DNA from: Polyangiaceae bacterium
Lineage (GTDB): Bacteria; Myxococcota_A; Polyangia; Polyangiales; Polyangiaceae
DNA: 64,000 nucleotides
Assembly (NCBI GenBank): GCA_025353725.1
Contig: JANXOF010000030.1
Coordinates: forward strand, 1-64,000
Reading direction: 5' to 3'
Part shown: in pieces, positions 11,615-13,243 of the stretch
Position numbering within the stretch: position 1 is the first letter of the stretch
Layout of the letters: every line of letters starts with the position of its first letter
The notes under the pieces: generated by a model
Told to the model about the DNA's origin: nothing
The model's input: only the letters and a program-made list of their open reading frames with translations
Database searches by the model: none
Made by a program: the position numbers and the translations under genes

Positions 11615-12031
11615 ATGAAGTTCTCCAACGCGTTTCTCATCCGCTCGGCCTCGCTTGCCTTCGTGATCTCGACGTCCGTGGCGTGCGCGAGTAGCCCGCC
11701 CTCGGGCGCGGCGTCGCCTCAAACCACGGGGTCGGAGCACGCTCACGGTCACGACCACGCTCACGAGCATGCCGGCGTTTCGCCCGTGCTTCATGACTTT
11801 CACGAGGTCATCGCTCCGGTTTGGCATACGCCCGAAGGCATCGCGCGCGTGGAAAAGACGTGCTCGAACGTGAAGGCGCTTCGTGAGAAGGCCTCCGCCG
11901 CGGGGGACGCGGAGCTCGTCGCTGCCGCGGCAGCACTCGAGCCGGCTTGCGCAAAGGAAGGGCGCCCCGAGGTCGAGGCCAAGCTCGCTACATTGCACAA
12001 CCGATTTCACGCGCTCAGCGAGAAGAAGTAA
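11615..12031 (+). CDS. Small His-rich lipoprotein
   Basis: 138-residue lipoprotein with a signal peptide ending in a VACASS lipobox. Directly after it comes a His-rich stretch (HAHGHDHAHEHAG), the kind of metal-capturing loop seen in zinc and nickel handling proteins. The rest is helical with two Cys (KTCSNVKAL and EPACAKEG). A metal-binding periplasmic role is inference. An upstream in-frame ATG at 11525 exists but would put about 30 residues before the signal peptide. The nearby TonB-dependent receptor and its two lipoproteins may belong to the same metal-related set. Confidence 0.7.
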   Translation: MKFSNAFLIRSASLAFVISTSVACASSPPSGAASPQTTGSEHAHGHDHAHEHAGVSPVLHDFHEVIAPVWHTPEGIARVEKTCSNVKALREKASAAGDAELVAAAAALEPACAKEGRPEVEAKLATLHNRFHALSEKK

Positions 12032-12090
12032 CCGCGAACAGGTTGCCTCTCGCACGCTAATTTTAATCACCTTTCTAGGAGTAAGCGAAG

Positions 12091-12309
12091 ATGGGCGATT
12101 TCGACCCTGACTATGTTTTTTCACATCACCCCGCGACGCCGCAAAAGCTCTCGGCGTACGATGCTGTTCACGTTGGCGCGAAGAGCTTCGCCGAAGTCTT
12201 GCTTGCGCACGTTCCGGAGTGCACGGACCGCGTGGCCGTGCTCCGCCTCGTGCGCGAGGCCTCCATGCTTGCCTGCGCGGCGATCTCGCTCGAAGGACGG
12301 CTGAAGTAA
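12091..12309 (+). CDS. Acb2/Tad1-like small protein (cyclic-nucleotide sponge family)
   Basis: 72-residue soluble protein. FSHHPATPQ near the N-terminus, then helices reading AYDAVHVGAKSFAEVL and VLRLVREASMLACAAIS, match the pattern I know for Acb2-type proteins (F..H.P...Q...Y......A..LA....P......L..L..A...ANAAIA). Phage members bind cyclic oligonucleotides made by CBASS or Thoeris-type defences and so blunt them. The Trp/Asn usually seen in MWANAAIA is replaced (MLACAAIS). AGGAG at 12077-12081 gives a good ribosome site. No prophage genes flank it, so here it is a chromosomal gene of unknown purpose. Family assignment is from memory of the motif. Confidence 0.65.
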   Translation: MGDFDPDYVFSHHPATPQKLSAYDAVHVGAKSFAEVLLAHVPECTDRVAVLRLVREASMLACAAISLEGRLK

Positions 12310-12388: not shown

Positions 12389-13243
12389 TTACTTTGCACT
12401 TGCGAGGCATTCACCCTCGCCTCGAAAGTGCCCAATCGTTCGCGAAAGCGCCTCGACGAATTGCCGCAGGTCATTTATCCCGGCTGCACTTCCCGTACCG
12501 TAGGGTCCCCTGTTCGCAGGGATTGAGGCGAGCTTCACTGTCGAGAGCTCCTCAAGGGTGATTGTGCCGTCATTGTTTACGTCGGCCGAAGCGATGGTGT
12601 CAAAACGAACCTTTGCCTCTTTGGCTTGAAGGTCGTCGTAATACAAGTGATCGCCGTGGGTCGTGAGCTGAATCGTATCCGTCCCGCCATTCGTTATCAC
12701 CGTGCCGTCGGTCTCTTTGCCCGCAAGTTCTCCTTTGCAACGGTCGTACAACGTTGTGAGTTTGAATCCCCACTTGTACTGCTTGCGTTGAGCGCCTTTC
12801 GTGGCCGTCGCTTCGACGTAAACGGCATATCCGCCGCTTAGCATGAGCTGCTTGTCAGCCTCGGAAGCGCCCTCACCGAGGGTGGTTGCTACTACTGTAG
12901 GGGCAATTCGGTAGCTCACGCGGTCAAACGACTTCGCTGGCAGCGACGGAAAATCGGCAATTTTCTTGTCCCCAGGTGCTTTTTGATTGAAAAGTTTCGA
13001 CGTAGGTAGCGTCGCTATAGGTGGCGAATCACCGTCGGCTACCGAGATGTCGTGAAACGTGACAAGAAATCGTTCGTACCTAATTGTCCAGCCGTCCTCG
13101 ACGGCTGACGCCGGAATTTGCTGTTCGATGAAGTCTTCTCCGTACGTCGTGAACGTTACTGTTCCGCGGCCTGAGCTATCCGACGTACTCGCGCACGTTA
13201 CCGTCATGACCGCGGCGAGAGTGCCTCCAAGAATCCTTTGCAT
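12389..13243 (-). CDS. Putative lipoprotein with an EF-hand-like loop
   Basis: 284 residues, with a short signal ending near TVTCAS. The body is beta-rich and unrecognised. Close to the C-terminus it carries DVNNDGTITLEEL, a canonical EF-hand calcium loop (D-x-N-x-D-G-x-I-xx-x-E). GGGAGAG lies a few bases before the start. It is the last of three same-strand genes starting with the TonB-dependent receptor, so it may be a surface partner of that receptor. Confidence 0.7.
   Translation of the reverse strand: MQRILGGTLAAVMTVTCASTSDSSGRGTVTFTTYGEDFIEQQIPASAVEDGWTIRYERFLVTFHDISVADGDSPPIATLPTSKLFNQKAPGDKKIADFPSLPAKSFDRVSYRIAPTVVATTLGEGASEADKQLMLSGGYAVYVEATATKGAQRKQYKWGFKLTTLYDRCKGELAGKETDGTVITNGGTDTIQLTTHGDHLYYDDLQAKEAKVRFDTIASADVNNDGTITLEELSTVKLASIPANRGPYGTGSAAGINDLRQFVEALSRTIGHFRGEGECLASAK

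Follow-up and report, generated by a model that had tools for sequence, protein, structure and literature searches.

The window analysed here is a 64,000-nucleotide stretch at the start of a contig from a Polyangiaceae bacterium. It contains a short forward-strand gene whose 72-residue product carries an Acb2/Tad1 hairpin domain. The gene, the features within it and the annotated features beside it are as follows.

11615..12031, + strand: gene for a His-rich putative lipoprotein, upstream of the hairpin gene on the same strand, with a gap of 59 bp
12077..12081, + strand: Shine-Dalgarno sequence AGGAG, 9 nt ahead of the ATG
12091..12309, + strand: gene for the Acb2/Tad1 hairpin protein, ATG start, 72 codons followed by a stop; PF24729 at 28.1 bits
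12103..12129, + strand: codons 5–13 (DPDYVFSHH), the N-terminal pocket segment
12124..12126, + strand: H12 codon, at the place of T4 Acb2 Y8 (PaP2 chain Y11)
12169..12171, + strand: H27 codon, at the place of T4 Acb2 K23 (PaP2 chain K26)
12389..13243, − strand: putative lipoprotein at the edge of a block comprising a TonB receptor and two lipoproteins

The AGGAG motif, read directly from the sequence, bears out the good Shine-Dalgarno claimed in a preliminary description of this DNA; no promoter or terminator match was found near the hairpin gene. The His-rich lipoprotein gene and the hairpin gene may be co-transcribed. The His-rich lipoprotein itself matched no family, and a paralogue in the same genome (G000:C77:4257-4672, L261) is 82% identical to it over 77 residues. 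Around the hairpin gene lie putative lipoproteins, the TonB receptor, a Ser/Thr kinase, a sigma-54 activator with an FHA domain and a TauE transporter. Lipoprotein-like ORFs are found on both sides, as the preliminary description had it, and its claim that phage genes are absent also held, since a Pfam scan of ten neighbouring window ORFs returned no phage family (0/10). One neighbouring ORF matched Csm3 at E 0.005, which was taken as chance. The TonB receptor and two-lipoprotein block to the right is kept, without the hairpin gene, in G002, G003, G006, G009, G010 and G011, and the left-hand side shows no conservation in the window's genus; the hairpin gene thus has no fixed genomic place there. 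A single copy was found in the window genome (G000; 6.6-Mb assembly, 98 contigs, 97.55% complete), where a second PF24729 match, at G000:C36, is weak (E 0.054) and below the cut-off.

Family membership was assigned from sequence profiles, because structure-match scores are not decisive for so small a hairpin. The Pfam family PF24729 (Acb2/Tad1 hairpin) matches residues 11–65 with 28.1 bits and E 2.4e-6, above its curated cut-off of 27 bits, and it matches 12/12 scanned host relatives with E ≤ 0.01 (lowest 1e-9). Two PHROGs of unknown function match the window protein as well, 31113 at E 2e-7 and 1454 at E 5.9e-7; NCBIfam and PADLOC gave no match. A phmmer search of the PDB with the single protein returned only Csx15, at E 1.4, which was dismissed as chance. 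On these profiles the 72-residue ORF is real and is a member of the Acb2/Tad1 hairpin family at the domain level. The earlier recognition of an Acb2-type protein of this length therefore stands: the ORF and the quoted motifs are present, and the HMM comparison that had been proposed gave a significant match.

The model built from a 64-row alignment (pLDDT 94.4) consists of a short N-terminal helix and two long antiparallel helices (17–40 and 45–66), with no β-strands. Against the PDB its top match is T4 Acb2 (Vs.4, 7uq2), at rank 1 both by Foldseek (probability 0.97, E 0.96) and by VIA (Z 7.0, rmsd 3.8, 66 aligned). An E-value of 0.96 and a Z of 7.0 are not decisive, because a common helical arrangement can score in that range. 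Nine of the 11 best BFVD matches bear the Acb2/Tad1 hairpin name, with every E > 0.001. The first model, from 10 rows (pLDDT 86.2), gave no Acb2 among the 50 PDB matches listed by Foldseek and none at E 0.001, and VIA placed T4 Vs.4 at rank 34 (Z 6.4). As modelled, the window protein keeps the Acb2 protomer fold; the structural check suggested in the preliminary description, made here with a monomer model, agrees with its assignment.

Relatives on host chromosomes are confined to a minority of genomes. An HMM of eight host proteins matched 13 of the 108 genomes of the family, giving 12 intact copies and one broken copy, while an HMM of 12 proteins matched 14/183 genomes of the order, the extra one being G480, from another family. 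The gene is found in 6/8 genomes of genus g22. In the window's genus, intact copies occur in 2/12 genomes, together with the broken copy (G004:C49:988-1136, L043), which lacks its N-terminus, has an interrupted frame and is possibly a decayed gene or an assembly error. Given this patchy occurrence, the gene is dispensable in that genus. Named records for seven host loci belong to Polyangiaceae bacterium (three), Byssovorax sp. and Myxococcales bacterium (three), and tblastn found no plasmid relatives. Across a sample of the phylum, PF24729 matched 5/377 genomes and is thus uncommon. The strongest match of that sample (L052, G134:C465; E 1.3e-21), from another family of the phylum, is surrounded by many short genes that look phage-like by eye in the raw sequence.

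Several of the host copies lie in conserved housekeeping surroundings. Loci L016 and L017 have many neighbours in common over ~16 kb, among them pgk, rnhA and a sigma factor, and their hairpin proteins are 93% identical; L019 and L020 (89% identical) have fusA, ACBP and a desaturase in common, and rnhA adjoins the hairpin gene in L042 too. The dN/dS ratios are 0.067 and 0.068 in the syntenic pairs L016/L017 and L019/L020, and 0.138 between the window gene and its counterpart in G007. By these ratios the host copies are under purifying selection.

The same domain also occurs in viruses. By tblastn the family was found in eight records from mycobacteriophages and from Gordonia and Lactococcus phages, a Gordonia phage protein used as query matched 252 phage records, and scans of IMG/VR added more than 100 loci. 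Viral members already go by ‘Acb2/Tad1 hairpin domain-containing protein’ in UniProt, and an Acb2-like protein has been annotated in the Cluster E mycobacteriophages Xandras and BigBubba on HHpred grounds, according to a passage of PMC11953737. The closest viral relatives, L009 and L010 (IMG/VR), are 52–54% identical to the window protein. The viral set was hand-listed by coordinates from the loci of these scans, two of which kept the best 80 of 109 and the best 80 of 107 confirmed loci; repeat contig fetches, partial matches and neighbours that were nearly identical were left out. Once identical sequences had been removed, it comprised 111 IMG/VR and 3 GenBank phage proteins (114), with T4 kept apart; ‘viral’ here is the IMG/VR label, and gene content was checked around L009 and for one gene of L010 only. 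Some viral relatives, L103 and L106 among them, recur almost unchanged across contigs from different metagenomes.

A tree was built from 127 sequences (T4, 12 host and 114 viral proteins; 81 columns, bootstrap not settled); in it the host proteins form one clade with support of 100/96, nested among the viral sequences. L009 and L010 adjoin this clade with weak support (88/35). With G480 added, the host clade has 13 tips and a FastTree support of 0.987. Genus g22 is scattered over several host sub-branches, which indicates that inheritance was not purely vertical. One clade nested in viral proteins probably reflects a single capture, and the status of the hairpin gene as a host gene is well supported. 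A prophage relic was rejected on gene context, conserved housekeeping synteny and the tree. The chromosomal setting outside any prophage, claimed at the outset, was thus borne out by the host-gene neighbourhoods in the window and its relatives, and the earlier idea that the gene is domesticated gains from the single host clade and the dN/dS values.

Proteins of the Acb2 functional family form homohexamers with three dinucleotide pockets and bind cyclic di- and trinucleotides. Position 12 of the window protein aligns with Y8 of T4 Acb2 and Y11 of PaP2 Acb2, and position 27 with T4 K23 and PaP2 K26; the spacing of the pair is 15 residues in all three. The lysine or arginine that follows the tyrosine by 15 residues (Acb2 K26) is presumably a phosphate contact. 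Pocket residues were counted in 13 host copies, namely the 12 intact copies of the family and G480. His12 and His27 are fixed in 13/13, so that both the Acb2 pocket tyrosine and the basic residue are absent from the host proteins. The two histidines occur together in 0/114 viral relatives, in which position 12 is Y in 102/114 and H in 8/114, and position 27 is R in 98/114 and H in 0/114. Three further residues, F4, P6 and Y8, are invariant in the 13/13 host copies (viral 9/114, 0/114 and 0/114), as is H13, which is present in 109/114 viral relatives too. The helical core is common to both groups: P42 is found in 114/114 viral relatives, A61 in 110/114 and M59 in 103/114.

The preliminary description had placed the key change in a Trp-Ala-Asn core. 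This did not hold: viral position 60 is T in 86/114 and W in 17/114, and T4 Acb2 reads W-A-C, so the nearest relatives do not as a rule have W-A-N, and the distinctive changes, H12 and H27, sit in the N-terminal pocket instead. Variation would be expected of a pocket in decay, whereas the host pocket is replaced and constant. Of all features, the most informative is the H12/H27 replacement, fixed throughout one clade of probably captured genes.

Set beside T4 Acb2, the closest structural match, the window protein differs at H12 for Y8 and at H27 for K23, lacks a 27-residue insertion present in helix 1 of the T4 protein, and is host-encoded, outside a phage or prophage setting. Sections of two studies report that T4 Acb2 loses its effect with the Y8A substitution and that Y8 is needed for dinucleotide binding (PMC12657218, PMC12657230). 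F82, which stacks on the base according to the former (PMC12657218, in part), is replaced by S66. Acb2 homolog 43 (PDB 9ptq), at 76 aa close to the window protein in length, heads the PDB sequence matches of profile A1 (E 5.9e-6) but matches the deeper profile A8 only weakly (E 0.15). It has no tyrosine at the aligned pocket place either (FDTH), and variation there is therefore not unique to host copies. The viral PF24729 proteins of L009/L010 and of Mycobacterium, Gordonia, Lactococcus and Paenibacillus phages share domain and length range with the window protein, but carry predominantly Y12 and R27, lack P6 and Y8, and differ in two pocket-flanking motifs. The likeness to Tad1 of a Clostridium botulinum prophage (7uav) lies in the C-terminal hairpin, as expressed in the Pfam name and a weak fold match, whereas the N-terminal β-sheet domain of Tad1, described in a portion of PMC12043709, has no equivalent in the 72-residue protein. 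Csx15 offers a functional parallel, since part of PMC13148439 describes it as a bacterium-encoded protein that sequesters a cyclic nucleotide, which for the window protein is putative. As described in the same text, Csx15 has an unrelated CARF-superfamily fold, is associated with type III CRISPR and is specific for cA4.

Genomes that carry the hairpin gene mostly lack the immune systems that its putative phage ancestor would have attacked. The search covered SMODS, Cas10 and DAC in the genomes of the family. No SMODS nucleotidyltransferase was matched in G000 at E 1e-5, in keeping with the earlier remark that no CBASS was visible, and Cas10 was likewise not matched in this genome. SMODS is found in 2/13 family carriers vs 7/95 other family genomes (Fisher p 0.30) and Cas10 in 0/13 vs 18/95 (p 0.12). 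Neither difference is significant, and coupling of the gene to CBASS or type III CRISPR is unsupported. With 11/13 carriers lacking SMODS and 13/13 lacking Cas10, the suggested role as host regulator of immune cyclic nucleotides is not favoured. All family carriers (13/13), the window genome included, have DAC, the domain of the c-di-AMP synthase, as do 104/108 genomes overall; because DAC is near-universal in the family, it does not discriminate. Beyond the window, at a distance of ~80 kb from the hairpin gene, the same genome has a CRISPR-Cas locus of type I-B (G000:C75, ~91.7–101.3 kb; L238 8661-18352) with cas6, cas3, cas8b, a DevR-like cas7 match below its cut-off and a cas4-cas1 fusion, followed by an apparent repeat array, as judged by eye.

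Into our preferred reading go the computed family, fold, single clade, host context and fixed pocket changes. An ancestor belonging to this order would have captured a phage Acb2/Tad1 hairpin gene in a single event, and the gene would now be a host gene held by purifying selection. Its product would keep the Acb2 protomer fold and probably the oligomer too, with an N-terminal pocket rebuilt by Tyr to His12, Arg/Lys to His27 and the addition of F4, P6 and Y8. The protein would then bind and buffer, or sense, a ligand other than the immune cyclic nucleotides of phage Acb2, or one held otherwise, since a pocket rebuilt in this way most likely means a ligand that is different or differently held; the pocket histidines argue at least for a changed binding mode. 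Capture and residence in the host are very likely, whereas the whole of this account, a captured and domesticated Acb2-fold protein with a rebuilt pocket, has about an even chance of being right. Ligand binding and buffering are what we infer from it, and that the host protein binds any cyclic nucleotide at all falls slightly short of an even prospect. The rebuilt pocket would most likely hold a housekeeping nucleotide. Phage Acb2 has been reported to bind cAA among others (parts of PMC12043709 and PMC10419184), and this, with DAC in all carriers, underlies the guess of a housekeeping dinucleotide. For the putative ligand, c-di-AMP is our best guess and an unlikely one. The fuller proposal, that a sponge branch captured once and given a two-histidine pocket now serves Polyangiales cells in holding or sensing a small molecule of housekeeping kind such as c-di-AMP, is less likely than not and is put forward tentatively.

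One rival reading makes the protein an anti-defence sponge that still works, left over recently from a phage or prophage and directed at CBASS or Thoeris signals. The family match, the fold as in viral sponges, the identity to the nearest viral relatives and the patchiness within the window's genus all speak for it; against these stand the lack of phage families in the ten neighbouring ORFs scanned, the housekeeping synteny of the relatives, the single host clade and a difference at both pocket positions in every host copy. We consider it improbable, and an ‘anti-CBASS sponge’ function for the window protein is not supported. Alternatively, the protein might restrain the host's cyclic-oligonucleotide immunity (CBASS or type III CRISPR) and so limit damage to the cell itself, in the manner proposed for host Csx15 and cA4. 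Some Csx15 members sequester rather than degrade cA4 and are proposed regulators of the host response, as stated in part of PMC13148439, but SMODS and Cas10 are not significantly enriched in carriers and neither was found in the window genome, so that such a brake is scarcely less improbable than a surviving sponge.

Loss of the key tyrosine could also mean that nucleotide binding has been lost, leaving the hairpin as a metal- or protein-binding scaffold that acts through H12, H13 and H27. All three histidines are fixed in the 13 host copies, and metal-handling neighbours occur (a heavy-metal ATPase in L014, a ferritin-like gene in L041 and the TonB receptor in the window), yet H13 is not specific, given its presence in most viral relatives, and the L016 and L019 copies have no metal-related neighbours. 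This scaffold is unlikely, though less so than the two preceding alternatives. Captured viral proteins act as dominant-negative subunits in some other hosts, and by analogy the host protein might co-assemble with incoming phage Acb2-family hexamers and spoil their pockets. The sequence pattern, a helical core kept while the N-terminal pocket diverged, would fit; most carriers, however, lack both SMODS and Cas10, and little would be gained by protecting such a system. Of the readings considered, poisoning of phage hexamers is the one we hold to be highly improbable.

Acb2/Tad1 sponges are described in the open literature as viral counter-defence. We found no description of host-chromosomal Acb2 proteins in open-licence literature, a scope that makes this weak evidence of absence. 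A bacterial chromosomal clade that is conserved next to housekeeping genes and whose pocket is altered throughout would be evidence that a viral sponge can be taken over by bacteria, and the natural series from Y/R to H/H offers a way to learn how a small fold chooses its ligand. Eight viral relatives combine H12 with R27, which is perhaps an intermediate state.
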